DNA of 64,000 nt from Stutzerimonas stutzeri. Its GTDB lineage: Bacteria > Pseudomonadota > Gammaproteobacteria > Pseudomonadales > Pseudomonadaceae. The notes below the pieces were generated by a model, which saw nothing but the letters and a program-made list of their open reading frames with translations, did not search any database and was not told the origin of the DNA. The translations under genes were made by a program, and so were the position numbers. This document shows, piece after piece, positions 6,139-22,696 of the stretch. Position 1 is the first letter of the stretch. Each line of letters opens with the position of its first letter. The stretch spans positions 434,001-498,000 of the forward strand of contig NZ_JAMOHZ010000004.1 in the NCBI RefSeq assembly GCF_024448715.1. The letters are read 5' to 3'.

Positions 6139-7365
6139 TCAAGCCCAGCGGCGGAAAATCAATGAGGTATTGATGCCGCCGAAGGCGAAATTGTTGTTCA
6201 TCACGTATTCATGCTGCATCGATCGCGGTGTGCCGGTCAGATAGTCCAGTTCGCCACAGCGCGGATCGATGCTGTCGAGATTCAGCGTGTGGATATAGCG
6301 ATCCTGGTTCATCATCTCGATGCTGAACCAGGATTCTAGCGCTCCGCAGGCGCCTAGCGTATGGCCGAGAAAGCTCTTCTGCGAGCTGATCGGCATGCGT
6401 GAGCCGAACAGTGCCTGAGTCGCCAGCGTCTCGGCGATGTCGCCCTGTTCGGTGGCCGTGCCGTGGCCATTGACGTAGCCGATTGCCTCGGCTGGAATCC
6501 CCGCATCCTCGAGCGCCAGTTCCATCGCACGACGCATGGTCAGCTGCTCGGGTTTAGTGGCGTGCAAGCCATCGGCATTGCTGCCGAAGCCGATCAGTTC
6601 GGCATGGATAGTGGCACCGCGAGCCAGGGCATGCTCCAACTCTTCCAGCACCAGCATGCCCGCACCTTCGCCTATCACAAGGCCGTCGCGATCGGCGTCG
6701 TAGGGGCGCGGCGATGTCTGAGGGGCGTCATTCTTCAGGCTGGTGGCATAGAGCGCGTCGAACACCATCGCTTCGGTGGCGCAGAGCTCTTCGGCACCGC
6801 CCGCCAGCATCATCGGCAAACGACCGAATTTGATCGCCTCGTAGGCATAACCGATGCCCTGGCTGCCGCTGGTGCACGCGCTCGAGGTGGGGATCACACG
6901 GCCGGTCAAGCCGAAGAAGATGCTGATATTCGCCGCCGTGGTGTGCGGCATCATGCGGATGTAGGAGTTGGCATTCAGCCCATCGGCCACGGAGTTCAGC
7001 AGCATATTGCCGAACGCCTTGATCTCCTCGGTGCTGCCGGTGGACGAGCCACAGGCGACACCCATGCGGCCGTCGCGAATCGACCCGTCGCCGAGCAAAC
7101 CGGCATGCTCCAATGCTTGCTCGGCAGCCTTCACCGACAGCTTCGAAACTCGACCCATGCTGCGCAGCTGCTTGCGCGTCCAGTGGCCGGGCACGGCGAA
7201 ATCGTCCACCGGGCCTGCCAGCCGCGTATTGAGCTCGGTAAAGCGATCCCACTCGTGCATGCGGCGGATACCGCTGCGATTGGCGCTAAAGTTATCCTCG
7301 ATGGAAGCCCAATCGCTGCCCAGCGAAGTGATCCCAGCCATGCCGGTGACGACGACACGTTTCAT
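6139..7365 (-). CDS. apeR: Beta-ketoacyl-ACP synthase, aryl polyene cluster (ApeR type)
   Basis: A FabF-like condensing enzyme of 408 residues with an intact Cys-His-His triad: C164 in SACTSG, H301 in NGHGTAT and H335 in LGHTLGA. Start ATG 7365 overlaps the ketoreductase stop; a longer open frame upstream is a shadow. In characterised aryl polyene systems the last gene encodes a separate ketosynthase that extends or primes the chain. It is the most distal gene of the 16.5-kb minus-strand operon. Family assignment is firm; the exact role (initiation or elongation) is inferred from position. Confidence 0.9.
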   Translation of the reverse strand: MKRVVVTGMAGITSLGSDWASIEDNFSANRSGIRRMHEWDRFTELNTRLAGPVDDFAVPGHWTRKQLRSMGRVSKLSVKAAEQALEHAGLLGDGSIRDGRMGVACGSSTGSTEEIKAFGNMLLNSVADGLNANSYIRMMPHTTAANISIFFGLTGRVIPTSSACTSGSQGIGYAYEAIKFGRLPMMLAGGAEELCATEAMVFDALYATSLKNDAPQTSPRPYDADRDGLVIGEGAGMLVLEELEHALARGATIHAELIGFGSNADGLHATKPEQLTMRRAMELALEDAGIPAEAIGYVNGHGTATEQGDIAETLATQALFGSRMPISSQKSFLGHTLGACGALESWFSIEMMNQDRYIHTLNLDSIDPRCGELDYLTGTPRSMQHEYVMNNNFAFGGINTSLIFRRWA

Positions 7366-8093
7366 CAGCACAGCCCGCCGTTGACCGCTAATACTTGGCG
7401 CGTGATGTAGCCGGCCTCGTCCGACATCAGGAAATTCACCGCACCGGCGACTTCCCCGGGCGCGCCCATGCGCTGGGCTGGAATCATCTTGAGCATCTCC
7501 TCGATGGGCAGGTTTTCGTCCAGCATGTCCGTCTCGATCAGTCCCGGCGCAACGCAGTTGACCGTGATACGGCGCTTGCCCAGTTCGACGGCGAGGGCTT
7601 TGGCTGCGCCTATTACGCCGGCCTTGGAGGCACTGTAGTTGACCTGGCCGCGGTTGCCGATCAGTCCCGATACCGACGTGATGCAGACGATGCGCCCAGG
7701 CTGGCGGCGGCGAATCATTGGCATGGTCAGCGGCTGCAGCACATTGTAAAAGCCATCGAGATTGGTGCGCATCACCAGGTCCCAGTCGTCCTCGGTCAAC
7801 GCGGGGAAGGCGCCGTCGCGGGTGAGACCAGCATTGCAGACCACCCCGTAGTAAGCGCCATGTGCTTCGATATCGGCTTCCAGTTGCATGCGGCATTGAG
7901 CGCGGTCGGCAACGTCGAATTGAAGAATCCGTGCCTGACGCCCCATCGCCTGAATCTGCGCTTGTACGGTTTCGGCCTCGTCGCGTCGCGCACGGCAATG
8001 CAGGACGATGTCGTAGCCGCTTTTGGCCAGGCGTAGGGCGATGGCGCGACCGATGCCACGGCTGGAGCCAGTGACAAGAATGCTTTCAGTCAT
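7365..8093 (-). CDS. apeQ: 3-ketoacyl-ACP reductase, aryl polyene cluster (ApeQ)
   Basis: A short-chain dehydrogenase/reductase of 242 residues, related to FabG. The NADP-binding TGSSRGIG is at 8-15. The catalytic set is N111, S140, Y153 and K157 (NYSASKAG). It would reduce the beta-keto group of the growing ACP-bound polyene. Start ATG 8093 overlaps the upstream dehydratase stop as ATGA, and its own stop overlaps the next ketosynthase start, which suggests translational coupling. Confidence 0.93.
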   Translation of the reverse strand: MTESILVTGSSRGIGRAIALRLAKSGYDIVLHCRARRDEAETVQAQIQAMGRQARILQFDVADRAQCRMQLEADIEAHGAYYGVVCNAGLTRDGAFPALTEDDWDLVMRTNLDGFYNVLQPLTMPMIRRRQPGRIVCITSVSGLIGNRGQVNYSASKAGVIGAAKALAVELGKRRITVNCVAPGLIETDMLDENLPIEEMLKMIPAQRMGAPGEVAGAVNFLMSDEAGYITRQVLAVNGGLC

Positions 8094-8542
8094 GGAGTGG
8101 GCTCTTGTAGATAGCTCGCCACCTCGGGCGGGCGGAACACATTGAGACGCGCCTCGGCATGGATGCCGGGCCCGTCGAGATGACACTCGAACACACCCAT
8201 GCCGTTGTCATCCTGCAACGAGCGAAGCGCCTGAACACGCAGCTGACAACCGACGGGGAAGTATTCTGCATTGCATTGAAATTTACGGGTGCCGAGCAGG
8301 AAGCCCAACTCCACCGGCTGGCCGGCCAACCTCGCTTGGCAACCGGCGAACGCAGCAACCGTCTGGGCCATTATTTCGATGCCGACCCAGGCTGGCAGAC
8401 TGCCGTCGGCCAAGTTGAACAGACCGCCAGAACGAACCTGCAAATGGGCAACGATGCTCTCTGCGTCGAATGCCTCGATCGCATCCAGCAGAATCATGTC
8501 GCCTGCGTGAGGCAGCAGCTCGGATACCGGCCAGTTGATCAC
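8090..8542 (-). CDS. apeP: Hotdog-fold 3-hydroxyacyl-ACP dehydratase (ApeP)
   Basis: A 150-residue FabZ/FabA-like protein. The expected catalytic pair is visible: H12 in LPHAGDM and E56 in WVGIEIMAQ. It would remove water to form the conjugated double bond after each reduction step. A second dehydratase domain is fused to the ligase at 18311-19990, so the cluster has two, as described for other aryl polyene systems. It overlaps the neighbouring ketosynthase by ATGA. Confidence 0.9.
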   Translation of the reverse strand: MINWPVSELLPHAGDMILLDAIEAFDAESIVAHLQVRSGGLFNLADGSLPAWVGIEIMAQTVAAFAGCQARLAGQPVELGFLLGTRKFQCNAEYFPVGCQLRVQALRSLQDDNGMGVFECHLDGPGIHAEARLNVFRPPEVASYLQEPTP

Positions 8543-9726
8543 GGCGCGTCCCCCACGATCAGGCTGATGTTGTTGCCACCGAAGGCAAAGGAGTTGCTCA
8601 TCATCCGCCGCGCGCCGGTAGCTGGCATCGACGTGCCGGCTGCGACTAGGTTCAGGCGCGGCAATTCAGGGTCTTGCTGGCCGTCCCAGCAGTGCGGTGG
8701 GAGCAACCGCGTAGGGTTGTGCTCGGATAAGGCCAGCCAGCAGAACGCGGCTTCCAGCGCGCCAGCGGCACCCAGCGTGTGTCCGGTGAGGGGCTTGCTC
8801 GATGAGCAGGGCACTCCGGCCGGAAACACCGCGGCGACCGCGACGCTTTCCATTGCGTCGTTGTGGCGGGTGGCGGTGCCATGAAGGTTCAGATAGTTGA
8901 TGTGCTCCGCCTGAGTCGACGCGCTGGCCAGCGCTTTGTGCATTGCCTCGATGGCGCCCTGGCCTTGCGGGTCGGGCGCGGAAATATGATGCGCATCGGA
9001 ACTAGCGCCGCCGCCGAGCAGGGCGATAGGGGCTGCGTCCCGGGTCATCAGGAACAACGCCGCCGCTTCGCCGATGTTGATGCCGTCGCGGGAGACGGAG
9101 AACGGATTGCAGATCCGCTCGCTGGTGGCCTCCAAAGCGCTAAAGCCCTGCAGTGTCAGGTCGCAGAGCGTATCGACTCCGCCGCAGAGCACCGCATCGC
9201 AGATGCCAGCATCCAGCAGACGCTTGGCGCTGAGCAATGCCCGTGCGCCGGATGTGCAAGCCGTCGAGATGGAATAGCTAGGACCGCTGAGCTGAAACAG
9301 ATCGGTGAGAAAGCTCGCTGGCGCGCTCAGCTCTTGATGACCGTAGTGGTAACTGGAAGGCAGCTGTCCGTCGCGGAAAAGCCCTGCGACGCCTTGGGTC
9401 GCTTCCTGAATGCCGCTCGTGCTGGTGCCGATGACCACGCCGATCCGGGCCGCGCCGAAGCGAGCGATCGCCGCGCTGATTTCGGCGCGGATTTCTTCTG
9501 CCGCGGCCAACAGCAGCTGATTGTTGCGCGTGGCATCGTGCAACTCGGCGCCCGCCAGCGAAGGCAATTCAGCAGTCACCGCGCCGACTGGCAGCGTGCG
9601 CCCGGCGACCCTCTTTGGACAGTTCTTCATGCCGGAGCCGTCTCCGGCCAGCAGTCGGCGCGCCACCTCGGCCTTGCCACGACCCAGCGCGCAGATCACC
9701 CCAAGGGCGTTCAGATAAGCGGTCAT
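8539..9726 (-). CDS. apeO: Beta-ketoacyl-ACP synthase, main elongating ketosynthase (ApeO)
   Basis: A condensing enzyme of 395 residues with C157 (STACTSG), H282 (LHGTATR) and H316 (TGHTLGA) as a complete catalytic triad. In E. coli and Xenorhabdus aryl polyene systems the matching ketosynthase works with the chain-length-factor-like ApeC; the ApeC counterpart here is at the 5-prime end of the operon. The start overlaps the stop of the lipoprotein gene. Confidence 0.92.
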   Translation of the reverse strand: MTAYLNALGVICALGRGKAEVARRLLAGDGSGMKNCPKRVAGRTLPVGAVTAELPSLAGAELHDATRNNQLLLAAAEEIRAEISAAIARFGAARIGVVIGTSTSGIQEATQGVAGLFRDGQLPSSYHYGHQELSAPASFLTDLFQLSGPSYSISTACTSGARALLSAKRLLDAGICDAVLCGGVDTLCDLTLQGFSALEATSERICNPFSVSRDGINIGEAAALFLMTRDAAPIALLGGGASSDAHHISAPDPQGQGAIEAMHKALASASTQAEHINYLNLHGTATRHNDAMESVAVAAVFPAGVPCSSSKPLTGHTLGAAGALEAAFCWLALSEHNPTRLLPPHCWDGQQDPELPRLNLVAAGTSMPATGARRMMSNSFAFGGNNISLIVGDAP

Positions 9727-10256
9727 CAGTGGCGGGTTCCGGCGGCTGCAGCAATGGGGGCGACACGATAGGTGAGTGCCGGCCCGACGTCGAGTTCGAA
9801 GCGGTCATTCTGTCGATAACGCACACGCCAGGGCGACGAAGCGTCATGCCGCATCGTTCGTTCATTTTCTTGCTGGCTCCACTGCGTATTCGCATACAGC
9901 GTGCTCAACTGCTCCGCCGGCGTCAGCGCAAACAGCAATGCGGCAAACAACTCGCGCGCCTCAGGGTTGGGCGGAAGCAAACCATCGGCCTGCCATTCGC
10001 CGTCGCTCAGAAGCTGACGTGCCAGCGGAATGCCCAAAGGATCGAGCAGTGACCAGCGTAGTGCGGCGCCGTCCTGCTGAATGACCAGCAGCCAGTCCTG
10101 GCTTTCGCCGAAACCGTGGCGCTGAATATGCAGCTGTAAGGGCAGCTGCAGCTCTGGTGTCTGCGTTGGCAGCGGCAAGCGCTGGGCGCAAGCGGCGAGT
10201 GACAACAGCAGCGGCAGCCATATCAGCGCTCGCATGCGTACAACGAGCATGTTCAT
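9726..10256 (-). CDS. apeN: DUF3261 lipoprotein (ApeN)
   Basis: A 176-residue predicted lipoprotein. The N-terminus has a hydrophobic segment ending in a lipobox (LSLAAC), so it should be anchored in the outer membrane by the cysteine. Start ATG 10256 is chosen as it lies just after the previous stop; later ATGs at 10250 and 10235 are possible and no strong ribosome site decides between them. DUF3261 lipoproteins accompany the LolA-like and MMPL proteins in aryl polyene clusters and probably help carry the lipid-linked pigment to the outer membrane. Confidence 0.82.
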   Translation of the reverse strand: MNMLVVRMRALIWLPLLLSLAACAQRLPLPTQTPELQLPLQLHIQRHGFGESQDWLLVIQQDGAALRWSLLDPLGIPLARQLLSDGEWQADGLLPPNPEARELFAALLFALTPAEQLSTLYANTQWSQQENERTMRHDASSPWRVRYRQNDRFELDVGPALTYRVAPIAAAAGTRH

Positions 10257-10266
10257 GCCGACAGGC

Positions 10267-11523
10267 TCATGCTGGTGTGTCCGCCGCGCAGAGCTCGGCC
10301 AGTACACGCAGGCGGCGTTTGGATTCGGCGACATAGGGGTTCTTGAGGTCCCAGGCATAGCCGGCGAGGATCGAGCTGATCATTCGACGTATCTCCGGCT
10401 GGGCGTGTTCGTAATAAATCACGTCCTGGAAGCTGCAGTCGTACCAACCCTCTACGTAGGTCCGGAATGTATCCACGCCACGCTTGAGCGGCGCGGCGAA
10501 CTCGCTTTCCCAGTCCACCGTCTCGCCCGACAGCTGGCGGTGCAGAACGGCGGCGGCCATGCTCGCGGAACGCATCGCGATGGTCACGCCTGAAGAGAAC
10601 ACCGGGTCAAGGAATTCCGCCGCATTGCCCAACAGGGCGAAGCCCGGACCGTACAACGTTTTGACGTTGGCCGAATAGCCGCCGATCAAGCGTGCCGGCG
10701 TATCCCACTCGGCGTTTTTCAGTATGCCGCTGAGGTTCGGCGCCTCCTTGACGAACGCCTTGAGGCAGGCATCCAGGTCGAGAGGCCGCCCTTCGTAGCG
10801 TTCGGCACTGGTGACTACGCCAAGCGAGCAGCGGCCGTTGCTGAACGGGATGGTCCAATACCAGACGTCGCGAAGCTCGGGATGAGTAGTGATGAGGATC
10901 TTGTCGCGATCGAAGCGCGGGTCGTCGATGTTGTCCTTGATATGGGTGAACACGGCGCGGCGCACCGGGAAATTCGACGGCGCCTCAAGGTCGAGCAGGC
11001 GCGGCAACACCCGGCCGTAACCGCTGGCGTCGAGGATGAAGTCCGCCTCGATCGCATATTCGCTGCCATCAAGACGACGTGCCTGGAGCAACGGGCGCAG
11101 GCCTTCGAAGTCAACCGAAATGATTTCTTCCTCGTAGCGGATCTCCACGCCCTGCAACTCGGCCTGGTCAGCCAGCAGTTTGTCGAAATCGGCGCGCTGA
11201 ACCTGATAGGTGCTGCCATGGCCTTCGGTGAATTTGTCCCTGAAATCAAAATCGGTGTAGCGCTCGCCCCAGCCAAATGCCGCGCCATGCTTGGTCTGGA
11301 AACCAGCGGCCCGGACCGCTTCGAGCATCCCGGCCTCTTCGACGAAATCCAGGCAATGCGACAGCAGGCTCTCGCCAATGGAGAAGCGAGGGAAGCGCTG
11401 CCGCTCGACGATCAGCACGTCGTGGCCCTTGCGCTTGAGCAGGGCGGCGGCGATGGCGCCAGCAGGGCCCGCTCCGATTACGACGACGCTACGTTGTTCA
11501 GGATTCACGAATGCCTTGGTCAT
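10267..11523 (-). CDS. FAD-dependent halogenase-like oxidoreductase in aryl polyene cluster
   Basis: A flavoprotein of 418 residues. It shows the FAD motif GAGPAG (17-22), the flavin-dependent halogenase tryptophan motif WxWxIP (W221-P226), the FxxPxxSxG motif (F304-G312) and a Lys at 78 in a GFxxKxGxxF context, which matches the catalytic Lys region of phenolic halogenases. This points to chlorination or bromination of an aromatic ring, as in brominated xanthomonadins, although hydroxylation by a related monooxygenase cannot be ruled out. The start is uncertain: ATG 11523 gives the natural flavoprotein N-terminus but has no clear ribosome site, and the frame stays open to an ATG at 11676 that overlaps the exporter gene. 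Confidence 0.78.
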   Translation of the reverse strand: MTKAFVNPEQRSVVVIGAGPAGAIAAALLKRKGHDVLIVERQRFPRFSIGESLLSHCLDFVEEAGMLEAVRAAGFQTKHGAAFGWGERYTDFDFRDKFTEGHGSTYQVQRADFDKLLADQAELQGVEIRYEEEIISVDFEGLRPLLQARRLDGSEYAIEADFILDASGYGRVLPRLLDLEAPSNFPVRRAVFTHIKDNIDDPRFDRDKILITTHPELRDVWYWTIPFSNGRCSLGVVTSAERYEGRPLDLDACLKAFVKEAPNLSGILKNAEWDTPARLIGGYSANVKTLYGPGFALLGNAAEFLDPVFSSGVTIAMRSASMAAAVLHRQLSGETVDWESEFAAPLKRGVDTFRTYVEGWYDCSFQDVIYYEHAQPEIRRMISSILAGYAWDLKNPYVAESKRRLRVLAELCAADTPA

Positions 11524-11665
11524 TGCTTGACTCGACAAAAGGGGATGGTTGATGTCTGGCGGATGCCCAGCGCGTCCGGCAGCAGGGTGGAAGCAGCCCA
11601 GCAGGCTGAGGGAATTAGTTTCAGTTGAAGGGTCCGTGCAAACAGCGCGGCCGCTTGCTTCGAGC

Positions 11666-14005
11666 TCAGCATGCATCTTCCTGGTCCGGTTCGGCGGCCC
11701 ACGGCGCCAGGGCGAAGGCGAACACCAGACCGAGTCCTACCGCCAGGCCGAAGTTGCTCACCGCCGGTGTACTCGACAAGGCCAGGAGGCCGAAGGACAA
11801 CCAAGTAGTGACGGCCGCCAACAAGGTCCCGACCAAACTCACGGCGGCGCCGCCAATTCGCTCGCGCATGAGGATGGCGTAATCGACACCGATTGCGCTG
11901 ACTAGCAGCAAGCCGAACAGACCGAACAGGGTCAGCGGCTGACCCAGCCAGCCCAGGCAGGCCAAGCTCCCGAGGGCCGACAGCAGCGGCACAGAAATGC
12001 AGCGCAGGGCACCACGCCAGCCGAACGGTAGGCACAGCAAAGCGAGAATCAACGCGGCGGCCAGCAGTTTGAGGAGGGCGGCCTGGACTTGGGTATCGGC
12101 AAACAGGCGGTTCAGTTCGGCCAGCCGGTCAATCAGACTGACACCATCGATATCGGTGGCCAGGCCGTGAAGCGCCGCGCTGTCGCGAAGCCCTTGCAGA
12201 CTCACCAACCCAGCGACCGAGCCATCATTTTGGACGCCCAACCACAACGGCCGCCATGGCTCTGCCAGCGGCCCGGCAAGCACATCTGTCAGGGTCGTCG
12301 GAGGTTGTGCCAGAAGGCCGGCTACCTCCGCGTCGAGCATTTCGGGCGTCACGCCAAGCTCCAGTAGGGGCTGACTGGCTTCCAGCAAGTGCGGCAGCAC
12401 GAGATGTAGGCTTTCCTGAGCCGACGTTGGTGCGACCAGTTGGCTCAGCGCCAGATAACCGTGAAGTTTCTGCTCCGCAACCAGCGCATCGAGGCGAACG
12501 CCGAGCGCTTCCTGCCGCGTCAGCAGCTCATCGGGATTCGCCGCGCGGACCAGAAAATACTGGCTGGTCGGTTCGAAGCCGGTGATTTCGCCGATGCGTT
12601 CGGCCTGCTGCTGGAGCACTGGCGCACGGCTGACCCACTGGCGCAAATCGTCCTTGAAGGAAACTTGGCTGACGCCGGCAATACAGAACAGCACAAATCC
12701 GGCGAGCAGCCACGGCGTGGAGAGCCGGCGAAGCAAGGCATTGCGCAGCGTCAAACAGTGCCCGGCCCAACCCAGTGGGGCGGGCCATGGCTGCAGCGGC
12801 GCGGTCAGCAGCGATGGCAACAAACACGTGGCGCAGGCGAAGGCGCCGAGCAGGCCCGCGGCGGAAAACACCGCCACCTGGCTCAGCGCCGGGAACGGGG
12901 TGAACGCCATGGCCAGATAGCCGATGACGTTGGTCGCCAATGCCAGCGCCAGTCCTGGAAGCGTCAGGCGCAACGCCCGGTAGCTCTGCCACGGCTGCAA
13001 GGTCCAGCTCTTGGACAGATAGTGCAGCGGGAAATCGATACTGACGCCGACCAGGCTGGCGCCGAGCACCAGTGTCAGCACATGGATCTGGCCGAACAGT
13101 GCGATGCAGGCGGCGGCACCGCTGAGCGCGCCGACCAGGACCGGTAGCGCAACCAGCAGGACGCGCGGTGTACGAAACAGTGCATGCAACAAGGCGAGCG
13201 TCGCTACCAGCGAAATGCTGCCGATCAGGCTGGCCTCCTCGCGCGCCTGTCGCTGCCCATAAGCGGCATGCAGCAACCCGCCCGCGGTCAGCAGCTCGCC
13301 CTGATTTGCCTCGACGCGACGGCGGGCGTCGCTGACCTGATCCTCCACCAGCATGGGCAGGCGATCTTCGAACGCATCGCCATGGGTTTGCGCATGGATG
13401 ACCGCCCAGCGCTGCCCGCCATGTTCAGCGATCAGCATGCCATCGAGGCGCGGATGGATATTGCCCGGTTGCGGCAGCTGCCGTTGCGCCAGATCGGCGA
13501 GGCCGAACCAGTCCTGTTCAATCGGCACGATGCCAGCACTGTCGAACGGGTTGTACAGGCGTTGCAGTCGGTGTTGAACGAAGTCTTCCGGCGATGCGAT
13601 TAAGGCTTCGCGGCTCACCGGCCCGAGCAGCGCCAGTCGTTGGTCCAGTAGCTGCTGACGCACCGCTGGCAAGTCGGCCTGCACCGAGCGGCGAACCTGC
13701 GCGAACAGCCCGCTGGCGCGGAGGCTGTCGGCAATCTCTTCGGCCAGCCCAACGGCCACTTCTTCATCGCTGTGGTGAATCAGCAGCATCAGGTCGCGGT
13801 TCAGCGGCTCCTGCATACGCTGCTCGGCGAGTTGCTCCAGTGCGCCCGGAGTGCCGCTGGGCAATAGCTGCAGCAGGTTGGCGCTGACCGGCGAGCCGTT
13901 GCGCCATTGCCAGGCGGTCAGCCCCACCAGCCCGAGAAGTGCCAGAAGAAACAGCGAGGAAAGCCAGGACGGCAGCCTGAGCGCTTTGTCAGTCGGCGAA
14001 GTCAT
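11666..14005 (-). CDS. apeM: MMPL/RND-family exporter (ApeM)
   Basis: A 779-residue inner-membrane transporter with the two-fold RND/MMPL layout. One transmembrane helix is near residues 15-33, followed by a periplasmic loop and a bundle of helices from about 255 to 425. A second loop and a second bundle (about 645-775) complete it. It probably moves the lipid-linked aryl polyene from the inner membrane to the LolA-like and lipoprotein partners encoded beside it. The start overlaps the LolA-like gene by 17 bases. The 142 bases after its stop hold no convincing gene of their own. Confidence 0.9.
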   Translation of the reverse strand: MTSPTDKALRLPSWLSSLFLLALLGLVGLTAWQWRNGSPVSANLLQLLPSGTPGALEQLAEQRMQEPLNRDLMLLIHHSDEEVAVGLAEEIADSLRASGLFAQVRRSVQADLPAVRQQLLDQRLALLGPVSREALIASPEDFVQHRLQRLYNPFDSAGIVPIEQDWFGLADLAQRQLPQPGNIHPRLDGMLIAEHGGQRWAVIHAQTHGDAFEDRLPMLVEDQVSDARRRVEANQGELLTAGGLLHAAYGQRQAREEASLIGSISLVATLALLHALFRTPRVLLVALPVLVGALSGAAACIALFGQIHVLTLVLGASLVGVSIDFPLHYLSKSWTLQPWQSYRALRLTLPGLALALATNVIGYLAMAFTPFPALSQVAVFSAAGLLGAFACATCLLPSLLTAPLQPWPAPLGWAGHCLTLRNALLRRLSTPWLLAGFVLFCIAGVSQVSFKDDLRQWVSRAPVLQQQAERIGEITGFEPTSQYFLVRAANPDELLTRQEALGVRLDALVAEQKLHGYLALSQLVAPTSAQESLHLVLPHLLEASQPLLELGVTPEMLDAEVAGLLAQPPTTLTDVLAGPLAEPWRPLWLGVQNDGSVAGLVSLQGLRDSAALHGLATDIDGVSLIDRLAELNRLFADTQVQAALLKLLAAALILALLCLPFGWRGALRCISVPLLSALGSLACLGWLGQPLTLFGLFGLLLVSAIGVDYAILMRERIGGAAVSLVGTLLAAVTTWLSFGLLALSSTPAVSNFGLAVGLGLVFAFALAPWAAEPDQEDAC

Positions 14006-14606: not shown

Positions 14607-15028
14607 GATAGTGCCCGCTCGACGGCTTCGACGAATACCTTGGGCGACGCCAGCAGCATTTCGCGACTGGCGATCTCCACGGCCACCTGCACGGTGCTGC
14701 CGCGGGTCATGCGCTCACCCGAGTCGGCGTCGCTGATCAAATAGTTGATCTTCAGTCGGTTCTCCCATTCGACCAGATCGGCACGGACGACGATACGCTG
14801 ATTGAAACGCGCGCCCCGCATATAGCGCAGTTGGACGTCGATGATCGGCCAGGCATAGCCGGCGTCGCGCATCTGAGTGTAGTTGTGGCCGATGTGATCG
14901 AGCAGGGCGCAACGTGCCACCTCGAAGTACTTCACGTAATGGCCGTGCCAGACCACATCCATGGAGTCGACGTCGAAGAACGGCACCTGCACCTCGACTT
15001 CTGCCTGCAGAACGCCCCCCTTACGCAT
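14603..15028 (-). CDS. apeK: Acyl-ACP/CoA thioesterase, 4HBT family (ApeK)
   Basis: A hotdog thioesterase of 141 residues like YbgC. The active-site signature DVDSMDVVWHGHYVKYFE (from residue 19) carries the Asp and His typical of the 4-hydroxybenzoyl-CoA thioesterase group. It could release finished or stalled chains from the ACP. The start overlaps the end of the ammonia-lyase gene by 8 bases. Confidence 0.88.
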   Translation of the reverse strand: MRKGGVLQAEVEVQVPFFDVDSMDVVWHGHYVKYFEVARCALLDHIGHNYTQMRDAGYAWPIIDVQLRYMRGARFNQRIVVRADLVEWENRLKINYLISDADSGERMTRGSTVQVAVEIASREMLLASPKVFVEAVERALS

Positions 15029-16565
15029 AAAGCCCCCAGTGTTGCGCGCGGATGCGTTGCAAACACAGGCGCAGCTCGCTCTCCAATGCGCGATCCTCGA
15101 TCAGCGGCGGGAAATCCTCGCCTAGTTCAACGTGCATCGCTTGTAACGGAGTCGGCAACGGGCGTGCGCCCTCGCTCCGCTGGCGCAGCCAGACGCCCTG
15201 GTTGGCCGCTATCAGCGTGGCGGCCGCGACCTGTTCAGTCAGTTCCAGGCTGCGCAGCGCATCGCGCGCGGCAATGGTACCCATGCTCACTTTGTCCTGG
15301 TTGTGACATTCGGTGGAGCGGGAGAAAACGCTGGCCGGCATGCTGTTTTTCAACGCCTCGGCGGCCCAGGCGCTGGTGCCGATCTGCACGGCCTTGAAGC
15401 CGTGGTTGATCATCGCCGTGGCAGCCGGTGCGCCGGATAGATTGCTCGGCAGGCCGTGGTTGTAGCGCGTATCGACCAGCAGCGCGAGCTGGCGGTCGAG
15501 CAGGTCGGCGATGTTGGCGACGAGGTTCTTCAGGCTGTCCATGGCGAAGGCGATATGGCCGCCGTAGAAATGCCCGCCGTGCAGTACGCGCTCGTTTTCC
15601 GCGTCGATGATCGGGTTGTCGTTGGCGCTGTTGAGTTCGGTCTCGATGAACTGGCGCAGCAGGCCCAGGCTATCAGCGAGCACGCCGAGAACGTGTGGCG
15701 CACAGCGCAGCGAGTAACGGTCCTGCAGGCGGTGCAACGGTGCGGTTGGTGCCTCGATGGCCAGGTCCTGGCGAATCCAGGCGGCGACCTGCATCTGACC
15801 GGGATGCGGCTTGGCGGCGAACAGGCGCTCGTCGAAATGTTCGGGATTGCCTTCCAGCGCAACCACGTTGAGCGCGGTGATGCGGGTGGCGAGTTTCAGC
15901 AAGTAATCGGCGCGAGCAAAGGCCAGGCAGGCCAGCCCGGTCATTACTGCGGTGCCGTTCATCAGTGCCAAGGCTTCCTTGGGCCGTAGCGTCAGCGGTG
16001 TCCAGCCGAGCTGACGATGTACTTCGGCGGAGCTGCGACGCTCCCCGCGGAAGATGACTTCGCGCTCCCCCGCCAGCGCCGCGGCTACATATGAAAGCGG
16101 AGTCAGGTCCCCGCTGGCGCCCACCGAACCTTCCTCTGGAATCAGCGGGAGAATGTCGTGCTCAAGAAAAGCCTGCATACGATCGAGCAGTTCGATGCGC
16201 ACGCCCGACATGCCATGGGTCAGCGAGCGTAAGCGGGCGGCTAATACCGCTCGGGTCGCTTCGGCGTCGAGCAGCTTGCCGAGGCCGCAGCCATGAAAGG
16301 TGAACAGGTGCTGTGGCAGCGCCTCGACTTGATGCAGCGGCACCGCCACCACGCAGGAATCGCCATAGCCGGTGGTCACGCCGTAAATCACGCCTTCGCG
16401 ATCCAGCAGCGTGTCGAGAAACTGCGCGCCGCGAGCGATGCGCTCGCGGAAGGCGCTGTCATTTTGCAGTCGAGCGGCCGCACGGCCTTGGGCGACGGTC
16501 AGCACATGCTCGATGCGTAGGTGGTTTTCGCCAAAGATTACGGGCTCAGTTGCGGCGTTGTTCAT
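15021..16565 (-). CDS. MIO-type aromatic amino acid ammonia-lyase
   Basis: A 514-residue HAL/PAL/TAL-family enzyme. The Ala-Ser-Gly that cyclises to the MIO cofactor is at 150-152 (GSVGASGDLTPLSY), and an N-terminal YGVTTGYGD loop holds the catalytic Tyr. At the substrate-selecting pair, typically Ser-His in histidine lyases and His-Leu in tyrosine lyases, this protein appears to have Phe-His (90-91), so substrate is not certain. No other hut gene lies nearby. Its place inside the aryl polyene operon suggests it makes cinnamate or coumarate as starter. It overlaps the acyltransferase gene by 20 bases. Confidence 0.85.
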   Translation of the reverse strand: MNNAATEPVIFGENHLRIEHVLTVAQGRAAARLQNDSAFRERIARGAQFLDTLLDREGVIYGVTTGYGDSCVVAVPLHQVEALPQHLFTFHGCGLGKLLDAEATRAVLAARLRSLTHGMSGVRIELLDRMQAFLEHDILPLIPEEGSVGASGDLTPLSYVAAALAGEREVIFRGERRSSAEVHRQLGWTPLTLRPKEALALMNGTAVMTGLACLAFARADYLLKLATRITALNVVALEGNPEHFDERLFAAKPHPGQMQVAAWIRQDLAIEAPTAPLHRLQDRYSLRCAPHVLGVLADSLGLLRQFIETELNSANDNPIIDAENERVLHGGHFYGGHIAFAMDSLKNLVANIADLLDRQLALLVDTRYNHGLPSNLSGAPAATAMINHGFKAVQIGTSAWAAEALKNSMPASVFSRSTECHNQDKVSMGTIAARDALRSLELTEQVAAATLIAANQGVWLRQRSEGARPLPTPLQAMHVELGEDFPPLIEDRALESELRLCLQRIRAQHWGLYA

Positions 16566-17493
16566 GGGTATTCCAGAAAGGGTAGAAATTGAACCATTGC
16601 ATCGGTGCGTCCAGACAGCGCGCCGCCAGGCGATCGGCGTAACGTTGTATCCACTGCTGTATCACCACGTCGCGCTCGCTGCGCCGCCACTGGATGCGCT
16701 CGGCGAACGGCTCTAGATAGACGTGAAAACGTTCGCCTTGTTTCAGGCAAAACAGCAGGTTGGCCGGGCACTGCAGCAGGCCGGCCAGCAACCATGGGCC
16801 CTGCGGAAAGGCTGCCGGCTGGCCGAGGAAATCAGCGTTGGCGATTCGCCCGCCATGCAGCGGTACGCGATCGCCGGCGATGGCCAGCCATTCGCCTGCG
16901 TCCAAGCGCTGGGACAACATAAGCATGGTTGCCGGGTCCAGTTCGCTGACTTGGATCAGGCGCAGATTGTTCGCGCCGGATTCGTCCAGCAGACGATTGA
17001 AGCGCTCGGCGTGGCGGGTGTGGACCAGCACATTCATGGTCACCCGGCGGCCCATCTCCGCCAGGGCCCGGCAGATTTCCAGATTGCCCAGGTGAGAGCC
17101 GACCAGCAGCTGGCCACGCGGCGCCTGTAGAACGGCGTGCAGATTGTCGTTGTCGTGTAATACCAGTCGATCCAGATCGAGGCGGCCGCCCCAGGCGTCG
17201 AGCTTGTCCAGTAGGGCGTCGGCGAAGGCCATGAACTGGCGATAGACCGACCGCGCGCTGGGCGCCAGCTCGCGCCGGCCGCTCCAGCTGGCGAGGTTGC
17301 GTTGATAGTCCCAGGCGCTCTGTCTGGCGCTGCGGCCGAACAGATAGAAATACAGAACGATCACATACAGCAGCGGCGTCATCGCACGCCGGCCAAGCAC
17401 ACGCACGGCCTGCGCTGTAAGTTTCATCAGCGCAAAGCTGCCGCGCTCGCGACGCCCGGCCCAATGCGAACTGGGTGCGGTGTGTTCCTTCAT
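16546..17493 (-). CDS. LpxL/HtrB-like acyltransferase of aryl polyene cluster
   Basis: A 315-residue membrane-associated lysophospholipid acyltransferase-like protein. A hydrophobic segment near residues 39-52 anchors it, and the HxxxxE form of the acyltransferase active site (SHLGNLE) is visible. It probably joins the aryl polyene to a lipid or sugar anchor. ATG 17493 overlaps the glycosyltransferase stop as ATGA. In E. coli, as I recall, the glycosyl- and acyltransferase parts are one protein (ApeJ); here they are two coupled genes. Confidence 0.85.
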   Translation of the reverse strand: MKEHTAPSSHWAGRRERGSFALMKLTAQAVRVLGRRAMTPLLYVIVLYFYLFGRSARQSAWDYQRNLASWSGRRELAPSARSVYRQFMAFADALLDKLDAWGGRLDLDRLVLHDNDNLHAVLQAPRGQLLVGSHLGNLEICRALAEMGRRVTMNVLVHTRHAERFNRLLDESGANNLRLIQVSELDPATMLMLSQRLDAGEWLAIAGDRVPLHGGRIANADFLGQPAAFPQGPWLLAGLLQCPANLLFCLKQGERFHVYLEPFAERIQWRRSERDVVIQQWIQRYADRLAARCLDAPMQWFNFYPFWNTHEQRRN

Positions 17494-18314
17494 CCGAGCC
17501 ACCGGCGCCAAAGTAGTTTGGGGGCACGCAGGAGCATTCCGCCAAACAGCCGCGCATGCATGGAGGAGATCAACAGGTTGTCGCGCCACAGGCGGAAATG
17601 GGAAACGCCATCCACCGGATAGTGAACGCGGGTCGGCAGCCATACCATCGGCTGCTCGCGCCAATGCAGACGCACCAGAATTTCGGTGTCGAAATCCATC
17701 CGTTTGCCCAGCTCGGTCGAGTCCAGCAGCGCTAGCGTCGGCTGTAGCGGGTAGACGCGAAAGCCGCACATCGAATCGCGAATCGACAGCGAGAGCGTGT
17801 TGATCCAGACCCACACATGGGTCAGATAACGCGCATAAAGGCGGCCTTTGGGAACGCTCGAATCGTACTGCGGATAACCGCAGATCAGCGCATCGGGCGC
17901 TTGGCTGGCACGGTCGAGAAACAGCGACAGACAGCCAAGGTCGTGCTGACCATCGGCGTCGATCTGCAGTGCATGGCTGAAGCCCAGGCGAGACGCTTCG
18001 CGCAGGCCGTTGGCGACCGCGGCCCCCTTTCCTTGGTTATGGCGGTGCCGCACCAGGTGTACCGATGGATGTTGCGCCAGTTCGTCGATAACCGCGGCGG
18101 CGACAGGGCTAGACGCGTCATCAACCAGGACGCAAGGCAGGTCTTCGGCGAGCAATGCCTGGACCACGGAGGGAAGGCTGCGCTCGTGGTTGTAGACCGG
18201 CACGACGACGCAGGGCTTGAACCAGTCGTCGTCGATGGCCAGCGCCAACTGTTGGTTTAGAACCGCCTCGCGCGGCTCGTTGATGACCGGCGCGGCCGGA
18301 GTGAGAGTGGTCAT
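17490..18314 (-). CDS. Family 2 glycosyltransferase of aryl polyene cluster
   Basis: A GT-A fold enzyme of 274 residues with the typical N-terminal VVPVYNHERSL nucleotide-sugar region, VLVDDASS, and the metal-binding DADGQHD motif. It likely adds a sugar to the polyene or its lipid anchor. It overlaps both neighbours by 4 bases. It corresponds to the first half of ApeJ if the E. coli protein is a fusion, as I recall. Confidence 0.87.
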   Translation of the reverse strand: MTTLTPAAPVINEPREAVLNQQLALAIDDDWFKPCVVVPVYNHERSLPSVVQALLAEDLPCVLVDDASSPVAAAVIDELAQHPSVHLVRHRHNQGKGAAVANGLREASRLGFSHALQIDADGQHDLGCLSLFLDRASQAPDALICGYPQYDSSVPKGRLYARYLTHVWVWINTLSLSIRDSMCGFRVYPLQPTLALLDSTELGKRMDFDTEILVRLHWREQPMVWLPTRVHYPVDGVSHFRLWRDNLLISSMHARLFGGMLLRAPKLLWRRWLG

Positions 18315-19990
18315 GCGGGATCTCCCAGCAGAATGCGCCCGGACGAGCAGGGCGCTTCACCGTTGCGATAGGCGAAATGCAGTTTGCCGCGCTCACGATC
18401 GAAGCGAAGGGTGAGCTGCAACTGGTCGCCGGGACGGGCCAGTTGCTGGAACTTGAGCACTTCCATGCCTTGGAAGCGCGGCGGAAGATCCTCGATCAGC
18501 TCGCGGGCCAGGGCCATGGCCCAATCGATCTGTACGACGCCAGGCAAGACCGGCGTCTGCGGAAAGTGCCCGGTGAAATGCGCCAGGTCCGGCGGAATGC
18601 CTAGTTCCAACTGCCAATGCTCATCGCTCTGGCTTGCGCTCAGGCGCTCCGGCTGCTTCGTACGGGGCGCCTGTAATAGCGCATCGAGTTGCGCTTGCGG
18701 CAGTTTGCCCTGCGCGTTGTACGGGAGCTGTCGGACCAGGCGCCAGCGCCGCGGCAACGCCAGTGCCTCGCAATGCGCCGTTAGATGTGCGCGCAGTGCC
18801 TCGGTCAATGCACGCCGGCCGCTATTGCGTAACGCATGCAGACCGGCGCCGCTGAGCGCGACCAGCGCCCCGAGGTAGGCACGGTTGTCACTGATCACTC
18901 CGAGCCGCGCTTCGTTGACGTAAGGATGGTTGGCCAGTGCGCTTTCCAGCATCGGCAGCGAGATGCGTTTTTCTTCCAGCTTGACGATGCGATCCAGGCG
19001 GCCGAGCAGTTCGAAGCGGCCATCAGCCTCGATGCGGGCGGCGTCGGCGGTCTGTTCGATATGCCCCTCCGGCAGGCAGGGCGAAGCCACCTGCAGTGCG
19101 CCCTGCTCGTCCTGGCTCAGTTGGACGGCGGCGAAGGGTTGCCACAGTCTGCCGCCCTGACGCCAGGCGATACCGCCGGTTTCCGAGCTGCCATAGATTT
19201 CCGTTGGGGCCTGGCCGAGGCGCTGTTGCAGCCGCACCGCTGCGTCGGCGTCGAGCGGGCCGCCGGAAGAAAATACCCGGCGCACGCTGCGCAATCCCGG
19301 CCAATCGAGGTTGTCACCCATACGTTTGAGCAATGCCGGGCTGGCCACCCAGCAGAAGCTAGCCTGCTCACGGCTGGCCAACTGCAGATCTTCGGGGAAG
19401 GGCAGCGCCCTGCGTAGAAAGATGCGCCCGGCACAGAGCGGCCAAAGCACGCGGAACAGCAGCCCATAGATGTGCTGCGCTGCGACGCTGCCGATGATGC
19501 AGGCGCTACCGAGATCGGCGCCCCAGCATTCCTCGAGCGTCGTCACTTCATTGGCCAGCTGTCGCAGGCGTTTTTCGATCAGTTTGGGCTCGCCGCTGGA
19601 GCCGGAAGTGCAGAGCAGCAGCTGGCATTGATCGAGATCCAGCGGTGCGCCGGCGAGCGGTTCGGCAAAAAGATCGGCGAGCCCGACGTCGCCGTTCTGG
19701 TCCGTTAGCCAGAGCTCGACTTGATCCTCAAGACGCGCACGATTGGCCGGCTGCAGATCCGCCGGTAGCAGCACGGTTACGCCGGCGCGCCAGGCGCCCA
19801 GCAGGGCGATGGCCAGCTCGGCGGCATCCTCCAGATGAACCGCGATCCGGCGAACGCCGCGGTCACGTAAACCACCCGCCAGACGCAACGCCTGCTCGCG
19901 CAGCTCGGCATGCTGGAGCGTAGGTTGGAGCGCTACCGTGCGGTTGTTCGGGGCCTGATCGAGCAGATGCTCCAGGGCAATCCAGTTCAT
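18311..19990 (-). CDS. apeH: Aryl-ACP/CoA ligase fused to a C-terminal dehydratase (ApeH-ApeI)
   Basis: A 559-residue two-part protein. Residues 1 to about 435 form an AMP-binding ligase with the phosphate loop (CTSGSSGEPK), the EIYGSSETGG motif and a C-terminal catalytic-Lys region (YNAQGKLP). Residues about 450-559 form a hotdog dehydratase with HFTGHFPQTPVLPG, whose likely catalytic His is 475. In other aryl polyene systems the two are usually separate proteins, ApeH and ApeI. It would activate the aromatic starter and also help dehydrate the growing chain. It overlaps both neighbours by 4 bases. Confidence 0.9.
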   Translation of the reverse strand: MNWIALEHLLDQAPNNRTVALQPTLQHAELREQALRLAGGLRDRGVRRIAVHLEDAAELAIALLGAWRAGVTVLLPADLQPANRARLEDQVELWLTDQNGDVGLADLFAEPLAGAPLDLDQCQLLLCTSGSSGEPKLIEKRLRQLANEVTTLEECWGADLGSACIIGSVAAQHIYGLLFRVLWPLCAGRIFLRRALPFPEDLQLASREQASFCWVASPALLKRMGDNLDWPGLRSVRRVFSSGGPLDADAAVRLQQRLGQAPTEIYGSSETGGIAWRQGGRLWQPFAAVQLSQDEQGALQVASPCLPEGHIEQTADAARIEADGRFELLGRLDRIVKLEEKRISLPMLESALANHPYVNEARLGVISDNRAYLGALVALSGAGLHALRNSGRRALTEALRAHLTAHCEALALPRRWRLVRQLPYNAQGKLPQAQLDALLQAPRTKQPERLSASQSDEHWQLELGIPPDLAHFTGHFPQTPVLPGVVQIDWAMALARELIEDLPPRFQGMEVLKFQQLARPGDQLQLTLRFDRERGKLHFAYRNGEAPCSSGRILLGDPA

Positions 19991-20565
19991 TTAGCGTTCC
20001 TGACCCGCTGGCGCACCAGCCATTCTCCGGCGAACAGTAGACCCATCAGCAGATACGCGATCAGCCCGGTGTACAAGGTCCACCAGCTAAGCGGCCCCCA
20101 GAGCGCGAGGCCTGTGGCAATGCTGGCGTTAATTATGAAGAATGCCACCCACAGCCAAGTCACTTGGCGCGTATATCGGACGGCGGCGGGCGGCAGCTCG
20201 GGTTCGCTCAAGCGTGCCAGGCGCTCGATGACTGGCATGCCGGAATAAAGACTGCCGGCGAACAGACCGAGCAGCGCTAGATTGATCAGCACCGGATACC
20301 ACAGCAGCAGCGCATTGCTGTCAGCCAATCCCAGCAGCAAGCAGAACAACAAGGCCGCGGTAGCCATCGCACGGGTCAGCGGGGTCTGTTTGCCGCTCAG
20401 TATTCGTGCCAGCCAGAGCGCGCCGAGCAGCAGTGCGAACAATCGCGGCGACAGGTGCTCCTTGCCCAAGTACACCGCGAATGGATAGGCGAGGCCGACC
20501 AGTACCAGGCCAAAACCAATCAGCCGGCCGGCAGTTGCCTTGCCTGTTTGAGCGGGAGCTTGCAT
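19987..20565 (-). CDS. apeG: Integral membrane protein (ApeG)
   Basis: A very hydrophobic 192-residue protein with about six membrane segments, of the COG4648 type found in aryl polyene clusters. It has no known enzymatic motif; a scaffold or transport role has been proposed but is not shown. It is followed by the ligase with an ATGA overlap. A 99-base gap separates it from the second ACP gene, the largest gap in the 5-prime half of the operon. Confidence 0.82.
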   Translation of the reverse strand: MQAPAQTGKATAGRLIGFGLVLVGLAYPFAVYLGKEHLSPRLFALLLGALWLARILSGKQTPLTRAMATAALLFCLLLGLADSNALLLWYPVLINLALLGLFAGSLYSGMPVIERLARLSEPELPPAAVRYTRQVTWLWVAFFIINASIATGLALWGPLSWWTLYTGLIAYLLMGLLFAGEWLVRQRVRNAK

Positions 20566-20664
20566 CGCGTACGTTCCGGTGACCCGTTTGGTTGCGCAGC
20601 CACAGCCGTCACCCGCTTTGCAAACCGAACCGGGCGAGACTGGCTTCGTTCGTTAATGTCCGGC

Positions 20665-20922
20665 TCAGACCGTTTCTTGATTCACCAGACGGTGCACGGC
20701 CTCGACCACATCACCCACGGTGCGTACGGATTTGAATTCTTCAGCGGCGATTTTTTTGCCGGTCTGGCGCTTGATGTGATCGATCAGATCCACAGCGTCA
20801 ATGCTGTCGATTTCCAGGTCCTGATACAGATTGGATTCCAGGCTGATGCGCTCGGGTTCGAGCTCGAACAGTTCAACCAGCGCATCGCGCAGAGTCAGGA
20901 AGATCTCGTTACGGCTGTTCAC
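20665..20922 (-). CDS. apeF: Acyl carrier protein (ApeF)
   Basis: An 85-residue acidic helical carrier protein with the phosphopantetheine serine at residue 40 (LEIDSIDAVDL). The start is GTG 20922, preceded by a strong GAGGAG ribosome site; the longer frame upstream is not used. It would hold the aromatic starter or the growing polyene as a thioester. It stands 13 bases after the first ACP gene. Confidence 0.92.
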   Translation of the reverse strand: MNSRNEIFLTLRDALVELFELEPERISLESNLYQDLEIDSIDAVDLIDHIKRQTGKKIAAEEFKSVRTVGDVVEAVHRLVNQETV

Positions 20923-20935
20923 GTTGGGCTCCTCC

Positions 20936-21199
20936 TCAGGCGACGGCGCGATTGGCGCGGACGTAGGCGGCCAGGCTGTCGACACTGGCGAAATGCTTGC
21001 GGGTGTCCTTGGCGTCGGCATCGATCTTGATGCCGAAACGCTTTTGAATTGCCAGGCCCAATTCCAAGGCGTCGACCGAGTCGAGCCCGAGCCCTTCACC
21101 GAAGAGTGGCTGATCAACCGCGATATCGTCCGGTCCGAGGTCTTCCAGACCCAGGGCGTCGATGATCAGTTGCTTGATTTCAAGCTGTAGTTGGCTCAT
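20936..21199 (-). CDS. apeE: Acyl carrier protein (ApeE)
   Basis: An 87-residue carrier protein with the attachment serine at residue 41 (GLGLDSVDALEL). It differs clearly from the second ACP, which fits the two-ACP scheme of aryl polyene pathways, where one carries the starter and the other the extending chain. The gene overlaps the upstream acyltransferase by 20 bases. Confidence 0.93.
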   Translation of the reverse strand: MSQLQLEIKQLIIDALGLEDLGPDDIAVDQPLFGEGLGLDSVDALELGLAIQKRFGIKIDADAKDTRKHFASVDSLAAYVRANRAVA

Positions 21200-21989
21200 C
21201 GAGTGCGAGCTCCTTTATAAAGTGTTGATGCAGATAATCGTTGAGTCGCCGTGACGCAATGGGCGCCGCTCCCCGTGCGGCGAACACCTGCGGGTCGATA
21301 TCCTCGCCGACCCGCAGATGAAAATGAAAACGTCGTGCTGGAATGCGGTACCAGGGCTCGGCCTTGGTCAAGGTGGTTGGAGTCACGCTGATAACTACCG
21401 GCGTGACCAGACGCGCTCCGCGCAAGGCGATGGCGGCGGCACCGCGGTGAAACTGTGGCGCCTGGCCGGGTGTGGTGCGAGTACCTTCGGGGAAGATGAT
21501 CAGCGTCTGGCCTTGTTGCAGTGCGTCGGCGGCTTCGTCGAGCATCTCGGCGCTGCCATTGTTACTGATGTACTGCGCCGCGCGGATCGGCCCGCGAGTG
21601 AACGGATTGTCCCACAGGCCTTGCTTGACCACGCAATTGGCGTCGCGGATCAGCGCGATCAGCACGACTACGTCGATTAGCGAAGGATGGTTGGCGATCA
21701 CCAATTGTCCGGGCCGACCCAGGCGCTCGGCACCCTCGACCTCGTAGGTCAACACGCCGCTGCGGTACATGAACTGGACGAACAGCCAGAACAGCCGGCT
21801 CACAGTCTGACGCGCACGTCGGCGGTGTATGGCGGCATCACCTGGCAACAAGGCGAGCAGGGGGAACACGATCAGTCGCAGGCAAAGCCCACCGAGCCCG
21901 AACAGCGCGAAGGACAGCCCCGTAGCAATCAGGCGCCACAGCCAGGGGGCGTTGGGACGGCTATTCAGTGCGTCTGCTGCCAGTTCCAT
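21180..21989 (-). CDS. apeD: 1-acylglycerol-3-phosphate acyltransferase-like protein (ApeD)
   Basis: A PlsC-type acyltransferase of 269 residues. The HX4D site (ANHPSLIDVVV) and the FPEGTRTTPG substrate motif are present, with a membrane segment near residues 19-45. Start ATG 21989 has GGAAGAGG upstream; the in-frame ATG at 22004 lacks a ribosome site. It probably attaches an acyl or polyene group to a glycerol-type anchor. It overlaps the ketosynthase-like gene by 25 bases. Confidence 0.87.
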   Translation of the reverse strand: MELAADALNSRPNAPWLWRLIATGLSFALFGLGGLCLRLIVFPLLALLPGDAAIHRRRARQTVSRLFWLFVQFMYRSGVLTYEVEGAERLGRPGQLVIANHPSLIDVVVLIALIRDANCVVKQGLWDNPFTRGPIRAAQYISNNGSAEMLDEAADALQQGQTLIIFPEGTRTTPGQAPQFHRGAAAIALRGARLVTPVVISVTPTTLTKAEPWYRIPARRFHFHLRVGEDIDPQVFAARGAAPIASRRLNDYLHQHFIKELALDEPTTA

Positions 21990-22696
21990 CGGCGCCTCTT
22001 CCATTGATGTTGGCAGCGGGACTGGCCGTTGAGCAGCGCGCGGATGAGTTCCAGCGCGTGGGGCCATTGTGTCGAGATGGCTTCTTCGCCAGCGGCTTCG
22101 AGGCTCAGCTGCCAGCCGCGGCCAGGCTTGAGCAGCAGCGCCACGGCGTAAGGAAAACTAACGTCGCTGATCCACGGCTTATAGGCAGCGGGTGGTTGGT
22201 CTTCGGTCACCACGACCAGTACGGCAGGTGCGCCTTCGGCGATCAGCAGGGCGGCTTCCAGCACGGCGTGCTCCAGCCCATCGCCTTCTGCCGCGAGCGC
22301 GGTCATCTCACTGGTGTCGTTCTGCAGGATCGACCAAAGTCCGATAACCGCGTTGTGCACCGAGAGGCTGAACTGGGTCGGCGATAGCGCCTCTTCGCGC
22401 GCGAGGTCGTTGAGGATGGCAAAGGTGCGCGATGTATCGCCGTGACGCGAGGCAAAGACCAACGGCATCGGCGGCAGACCTGCAGCCAGTGGCGTGGCCA
22501 CGGCGAATGCCATACGTGCCAGACGGCTCAAACGACGACGCTGCATGGCCGGCAGAAAGGCAACGTCAGGCTGCCCCTCGCTGCTGTCGAGCCTATGCGG
22601 ATGCCGGGCCCAAATCGCCCAGTCATCAGCGCTCGCCAGACCTGGTGCCCAGGCCCGCCATTGATCGATATCGAATTGAATCACGCTAGAACTCAC
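21965..22696 (-). CDS. apeC: Half-size beta-ketoacyl synthase-like protein, probable chain length factor (ApeC)
   Basis: A 243-residue protein matching only the N-terminal half of a ketosynthase. It lacks the catalytic Cys-His-His set and ends where a normal ketosynthase would continue. In aryl polyene systems ApeC forms a complex with the active ketosynthase ApeO and sets chain length. It is the first gene of the operon. The start is GTG 22696; a second GTG five codons later, with GGTGAG upstream, is equally plausible. Confidence 0.82.
   Translation of the reverse strand: MSSSVIQFDIDQWRAWAPGLASADDWAIWARHPHRLDSSEGQPDVAFLPAMQRRRLSRLARMAFAVATPLAAGLPPMPLVFASRHGDTSRTFAILNDLAREEALSPTQFSLSVHNAVIGLWSILQNDTSEMTALAAEGDGLEHAVLEAALLIAEGAPAVLVVVTEDQPPAAYKPWISDVSFPYAVALLLKPGRGWQLSLEAAGEEAISTQWPHALELIRALLNGQSRCQHQWKRRRWNWQQTH

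Follow-up and report, generated by a model that had tools for sequence, protein, structure and literature searches.

A probable complete aryl polyene operon of Stutzerimonas stutzeri with an ammonia-lyase and a halogenase-like flavoprotein

Introduction

Aryl polyenes are common yellow protective pigments of Gram-negative bacteria. Here we describe an aryl polyene locus in a stretch of 64,000 nucleotides from Stutzerimonas stutzeri (NCBI RefSeq assembly GCF_024448715.1, contig NZ_JAMOHZ010000004.1, positions 434,001 to 498,000 of the forward strand), called the window below, and compare it with described systems. The apeA-apeR cluster of Escherichia coli CFT073 shares its core genes with the window, in unchanged order from apeC to apeR, and the table of gene order and functions given for E. 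coli agrees with that of the window (PMC8253772 Table 1). The CFT073 cluster contains apeA and apeB and lacks two genes of the window locus, encoding an ammonia-lyase and a flavoprotein (X), whereas the window has apeH and apeI fused and apeJ split in two. Aryl polyene clusters organised like those of E. coli and Vibrio fischeri are reported from most of the marine Pseudomonadaceae genomes examined, in a set that includes Stutzerimonas (PMC10165715), and the Pseudomonas donghuensis genes similar to the V. fischeri cluster include ammonia-lyase genes (PMC5851621). The window's cluster is of the same family as these Pseudomonadaceae clusters, for which the parts consulted of both papers mention no halogenase-like gene.

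Results

The 18 genes at positions 6139-22696 of the window, all on the minus strand and ordered apeC to apeR as in E. coli CFT073, very probably form a complete aryl polyene operon, of the lyase-plus-flavoprotein subtype that is the norm for its genus and for Pseudomonas. Genes were called from Pfam and NCBIfam profile searches and BLASTP against the CFT073 cluster proteins, and start codons were re-chosen. The profiles name the diagnostic genes: ApeP (PF22817), ApeI (PF22818), Ketoacyl-synt_2, two acyl carrier proteins, DUF3261, LolA_3, Lyase_aromatic and Trp_halogenase. BLASTP paired 15 of the 16 CFT073 genes from C to R with genes of the window, in conserved order and at 29-60% identity, CFT073 apeJ matching both J genes. 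CFT073 ApeN had no BLASTP partner in the window at 1e-3, and the window's apeN is assigned from DUF3261 alone. The biosynthetic core is present throughout (ApeO-ApeC, ApeR, the carrier proteins ApeE and ApeF, ApeH, ApeI, ApeP and ApeQ), as are the export genes apeL, apeM and, through its DUF3261 match, apeN. The lyase gene lies between apeJ and apeK, and the X gene between apeM and apeN. A preliminary description made from the sequence had proposed 18 packed minus-strand genes in C-R order with a fused H+I, a split J, an added ammonia-lyase and an added halogenase-like flavoprotein; the profile and BLASTP results bear it out on all of these.

The same description had the genes mostly overlapping, which agrees with the re-chosen starts: overlaps of 1-25 bases occur at 12 of the 17 junctions and gaps of 10-142 bases at the other five (E/F, 13, with the apeF start a GTG at 20922; F/G, 99; J/J, 62; M/X, 142; X/N, 10). 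The mechanical open reading frame (ORF) of X, 10267-11676, begins too early, its relatives starting near 11523, and that of apeR, 6139-7998, is too long, the true start being at 7365. Chance packing is irrelevant here because of the family matches and the conserved order. Promoter and terminator scans showed no excess over shuffled sequences. The cluster is flanked by hemE on the left and by trxC, tRNA-Met, rpoD and dnaG on the right (window 4034-27625), in a genome of 4.6 Mb (G000), and 38 bases past apeR a 19th gene, S, begins on the same strand (Table 1).

The occurrence of the cluster in the genus was assessed in 56 genomes, which the nearest named relatives place most probably in Stutzerimonas. 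Thirty-nine have an ApeP match; one of these, in G379, lies below the cut-off and is accompanied by neither lyase nor X, which leaves 38 clusters. The lyase gene is within about 10 kb of apeP in all 38, as read from coordinates, and X is within about 4 kb of apeP in 36, being absent from G370 and G382. Broken copies occur: of the lyase in G415, and of X, with an in-frame stop, in G369 and G414. The two genes also stand at the same places in several other families, so their earlier designation as non-standard does not hold, and we rejected the idea that they are strain-specific additions. The named loci used are the best 80 of at least 527 confirmed X-profile matches, a search that starts from X and hence gives no measure of its frequency. 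Nearest to the window among these 80 are five Stutzerimonas loci (L053, L056, L072, L095, L105) and one of Pseudomonas songnenensis (L089), with X proteins 87-89% and lyases 91-93% identical to those of the window.

The hemE-dnaG interval was read in eight of the 18 genus genomes that lack the cluster (L130-L137). None of the eight sites gave a match to the ape genes or to S, and all eight keep a neighbouring small ORF (window 5202-5621); the site in G383 (L130) is short and empty. The cluster behaves as an all-or-nothing block at the hemE-dnaG site, present in 38 of the 56 genomes. In all nine cluster-bearing genus loci mapped, S comes after apeR, at 51-94% identity, and some of these loci show a weak apeA-like match separating the two. 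S was also found at 41 of the 80 named loci, and Pfam gave no match for it. S is the 19th gene of the cassette and is gained and lost with the cluster.

Table 1. Genes of the aryl polyene cassette, by position in the window
Gene and product	Position	Strand	Basis
apeC, ketosynthase chain-length factor	21965..22696	-	PF13723 E 1.6e-76; 30% to CFT073 ApeC
apeD, lysophospholipid acyltransferase	21180..21989	-	PF01553; 42% to CFT073 ApeD; start chosen
apeE, acyl carrier protein	20936..21199	-	NF006617 above cut-off; 56% to CFT073 ApeE
apeF, acyl carrier protein, GTG start	20665..20922	-	NF003757 above cut-off; 54% to CFT073 ApeF
apeG, membrane protein	19987..20565	-	48% to CFT073 ApeG; no Pfam match
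apeH-apeI fusion, acyl-ACP synthetase and dehydratase (ACP, acyl carrier protein)	18311..19990	-	PF00501 and PF22818 ApeI-like, single ORF
apeJ, glycosyltransferase half	17490..18314	-	PF00535; 54% to part of CFT073 ApeJ
apeJ, acyltransferase half	16546..17427	-	PF03279; 40% to part of CFT073 ApeJ; start chosen
Aromatic amino-acid ammonia-lyase, proposed starter supply	15021..16565	-	PF00221 528.6 bits; Ala-Ser-Gly of 4-methylideneimidazole-5-one (MIO) cofactor; 28% to genus HutH-like proteins
apeK, thioesterase	14603..15028	-	PF13279; 51% to CFT073 ApeK
apeL, LolA-like chaperone	13989..14603	-	PF19574; NCBIfam LolA2_flexi below cut-off; 30% to CFT073 ApeL
apeM, RND/MMPL-type exporter	11666..14005	-	29% over 761 columns to CFT073 ApeM
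X, flavoprotein, flavin-dependent halogenase superfamily	10267..11523	-	PF04820; 3nix E 2e-109, then halogenases; confidently predicted fold; structure matches
apeN, DUF3261 LolB-like protein	9726..10256	-	PF11659
apeO, ketosynthase, ACTSG at 156	8539..9726	-	NF006618 above cut-off; 46% to CFT073 ApeO
apeP, dehydratase	8090..8542	-	PF22817 ApeP-like; 35% to CFT073 ApeP
apeQ, ketoreductase	7365..8093	-	60% to CFT073 ApeQ
apeR, ketosynthase, ACTSG at 163	6139..7365	-	NF006587 723.8 bits, above cut-off; 55% to CFT073 ApeR
S, small protein, secretion-signal-like N-terminus (by eye)	5660..6100	-	38 bases after apeR; tracks cluster in genus

To place the subtype beyond the genus we used a class sample of 369 genomes, 44 of which, the window's own included, have an ApeP match. 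Of the other 43, the 11 weakest were set aside and loci were taken from the remaining 32, one of which is from the window's own genus; several of these loci are cut off by a contig edge. In tblastn searches, the lyase is present in 14 of the 32, X (at least 43% identity) in 14 and both in seven, X-like proteins of 23-31% in L021, L022, L027 and L028 not being counted as X. Three other families repeat the arrangement J-lyase-K-L-M-X (L005; L012; L019 and L023), and a further two have lyase-K-L-M-X with J at another place (L011; L016). A gene beside the cluster at L011 and L016 looks by eye like DarA of dialkylresorcinol synthesis. Among the 80 named loci, 59 show the lyase, and the figure is 51 of 64 when only loci spanning at least 20 kb are counted; those with it include loci of Pseudomonas, Shewanella, Marinobacter, Duganella and Comamonas. 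The gene order of the window is found again in named members of Pseudomonas, Shewanella, Marinobacter and the Burkholderiales.

The remaining 21 named loci show no lyase. It was searched for in ten X-bearing genomes, those of nine of these 21 loci and that of L046, which carries the lyase at the cluster's far end. A full copy is present in three (63-69%, interrupted in one by an in-frame stop) and a partial copy in one (68%), and the other six have only relatives of 33-37%. Together with the presence of the lyase and absence of X in G370 and G382, this suggests that the two proteins have separate jobs. Four Cupriavidus loci (L064, L079, L081, L090) carry an X homologue (58-60%) beside a reductase, with the rest of the ape cluster absent; the X neighbours scanned at L079, a reductase and a CoA-transferase, tell nothing of function.

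The ammonia-lyase has the Ala-Ser-Gly that forms MIO, within a GASGD motif present in all 23 aligned cluster lyases, the window's included. It is the sole PF00221 match in the window's genome. A second, higher-scoring PF00221 match occurs in four other genomes of the genus (G394, G405, G407, G414). The cluster lyase is 28% identical to two proteins of the genus that we labelled HutH-like from their PF00221 scores and residues. The glutamate in the NQED motif of these proteins, a mark of histidases, is replaced by Q in the cluster lyases, and the first selectivity site reads F-H or Y-H in the cluster lyases (F-H in the window's) versus S-H in the HutH-like proteins. We rejected a catabolic histidase on this identity and these two replacements. 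Anabaena-type phenylalanine lyases have F-L at the selectivity site, and the Rhodobacter tyrosine lyase has H-L. FlxA, from the flexirubin cluster of Chitinophaga pinensis, combines, as the cluster lyase does, a first motif like that of histidine ammonia-lyases with a second like that of tyrosine or phenylalanine ammonia-lyases; it converts tyrosine to coumarate and phenylalanine to cinnamate, and does not use histidine (PMC3992019). Because its residues are unlike those of the HutH-like proteins and FlxA offers a precedent, the cluster enzyme is likely to be a tyrosine or phenylalanine lyase, the sequence not saying which. By analogy with flexirubin, the starter is likely to be coumarate or cinnamate.

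X was searched against solved structures with 409 of its 418 residues. The best match, at E 2e-109, was 3nix, which is a Cytophaga hutchinsonii flavoprotein with no stated function, and the sequence matches after it include the halogenases CndH, FasV, CmlS, Mpy16, Bmp2, ChlB4 and PltA. A structure model built with 20 aligned sequences reached a mean predicted local distance difference test score (pLDDT) of 92.7. Structure comparison, a re-ranking of Foldseek matches that covers the families among those matches, again placed 3nix at the top (Z 54.6; root-mean-square deviation 1.8 over 404 residues). The next nine entries are ChlB4, Mpy16, PltA, Bmp2 (two entries), FasV, RadH, CndH and CmlS, with Z falling from 44.1 to 35.6, and hydroxylases follow from Z 35.3. 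GxGxxG, a lysine and WxWxIP are invariant in the 20 aligned X proteins; in a wider set of 23 with remote relatives, the lysine and WxWxIP are present in all and GxGxxG was read in 21, L025 and L040 being incomplete. The lysine was identified from the position it takes when X is aligned with halogenases. These three features are described as halogenase marks, and WxWxIP has been suggested to stop halogenases from working as monooxygenases (PMC5945002). With regard to the catalytic glutamate of halogenases (E346 of PrnA), X reads FLDPVFSSG, and CndH (3e1t) likewise reads DPVFSSG, without a glutamate. Among NCBIfam models, X scored 165 of 900 bits against CmlS, far under the cut-off, and 130 of 240 bits against the monooxygenase QhpG.

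The methyltransferase gene apeB is absent from the cluster genes of the window, and the window's genome has no match to CFT073 ApeB, as the preliminary description had it for the cluster. That description also expected the pigment to differ from both the E. coli and the Vibrio types. For E. coli this is a fair prediction, because this apeC-apeR-type operon and its genome gave no apeB; a difference from the Vibrio type is unsupported, given the ammonia-lyase genes of P. donghuensis (PMC5851621). V. fischeri appears in no title among the 80 named loci. Across the 32 class loci, X occurs in 14, ApeB in four and both together in none (p about 0.09 by hand calculation, ignoring kinship and loci cut by contig ends). 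ApeB likewise turned up at none of the 80 named loci, though only 15 of these show apeC, the gene past which apeB would be located. Counter to exclusion, G162, a genome of the genus, combines an X gene inside its cluster with an ApeB-like methyltransferase (53%) on another contig (L127:6993-8033), with no ape gene in the surrounding 11.7 kb read. We considered mutual exclusion of X and ApeB and do not claim it.

Discussion

The identity, order and conservation of the genes were observed directly; the chemical steps that follow are proposals, modelled from loading to the outer membrane on the scheme published for E. coli (PMC8253772). The lyase would deaminate tyrosine and/or phenylalanine to coumarate or cinnamate, which the ApeH half of the fusion would load onto ApeE or ApeF. 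ApeO-ApeC and ApeR, with ApeQ and ApeP/ApeI, would extend the starter to the polyene. X may modify the aryl head; this could be a halogenation, like that of xanthomonadins, and could take place on the carrier. ApeK, ApeD and ApeJ would serve release and attachment to lipid, and ApeM, ApeL and ApeN transport to the outer membrane.

Several points weigh against a lyase-fed pathway with a halogenase. For this strain the pathway and its pigment are predicted from the genes. The selectivity residues of the lyase fit neither a classical tyrosine nor a classical phenylalanine lyase, and six of the ten X-bearing genomes searched have only remote lyase relatives (33-37%), so that 4-hydroxybenzoate may be the starter. 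The nearest solved relative of X, 3nix, has no known activity, and the Z of CmlS, 35.6, is level with that of the best hydroxylases. If the starter in the window were 4-hydroxybenzoate as in E. coli, the lyase would serve another role or supply only a second starter, and the operon is indeed otherwise kept without this lyase in CFT073 and at L054, L059, L062, L076, L104 and L112. We regard this as improbable for the window, where the lyase gene overlaps both of its operon neighbours and is the genome's only one of its family, with a counterpart in every genus cluster.

For X, the choice lies between halogenation and another flavin chemistry. That it is a flavin monooxygenase or oxidoreductase, hydroxylating or oxidising the head group or the polyene, is a serious possibility, if somewhat short of an even chance: p-hydroxybenzoate hydroxylase has the same fold (Z about 35), the best match of X by a wide margin is an uncharacterised flavoprotein, and its NCBIfam scores fall well below the CmlS cut-off and extend to QhpG. 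Against it stand the WxWxIP motif, kept in all 23 X homologues, and the nine halogenase entries that follow 3nix. That X halogenates is put forward here as a tentative proposal. Several of the halogenases nearest X act on carrier-bound substrates, as would be fitting in a type II polyketide pathway. X may be a dedicated halogenase for such substrates, kept through the lyase-type clusters of Stutzerimonas, Pseudomonas, Shewanella and Burkholderiales, an idea we offer with similar reserve. Among the matches listed from the open-licence literature, we noticed none on a halogenated aryl polyene of either Pseudomonas or Stutzerimonas. A cluster of the xanthomonadin type, which the halogenase-type gene beside aryl polyene genes could recall (as in Xanthomonas, PMC3691225), is very improbable, since gene order and best matches are those of the E. 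coli type and the X-like protein of L021, a differently ordered and maybe xanthomonadin-type locus, is about 30% identical to X versus at least 43% within the X family.

The cluster itself is ordinary, and the halogenase-like flavoprotein, its activity being predicted, belongs to the regular gene set of a widespread pigment operon. X is kept or lost independently of the lyase, which makes it a clean target for asking whether aryl polyenes outside Xanthomonas are halogenated. Should X be a halogenase of carrier-bound substrates, a large share of a very common pigment family would be halogenated at the head group, well beyond Xanthomonas and possibly in place of methylation by ApeB.

Among the described systems, the flexirubin cluster of C. 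pinensis shares with the window an aromatic amino-acid lyase feeding an aryl polyene (PMC3992019). Flexirubin differs in being esterified to a dialkylresorcinol, genes for which were not recognised in the window's operon (no dedicated dar model was run). The xanthomonadin and arcuflavin clusters also combine aryl polyene genes with a halogenase gene (PMC3691225, PMC3949708). They differ in gene make-up and in their chorismate-derived hydroxybenzoate starter of the XanB2 type; no XanB2-type chorismatase was recognised in the window's cluster, though the genome as a whole was not searched for one. Xanthomonas has both the halogenase and brominated pigments, and Lysobacter has neither (PMC3691225). 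Finding a halogenase gene in such a cluster has precedents, in Xanthomonas (PMC3691225) and Azoarcus (PMC3949708).

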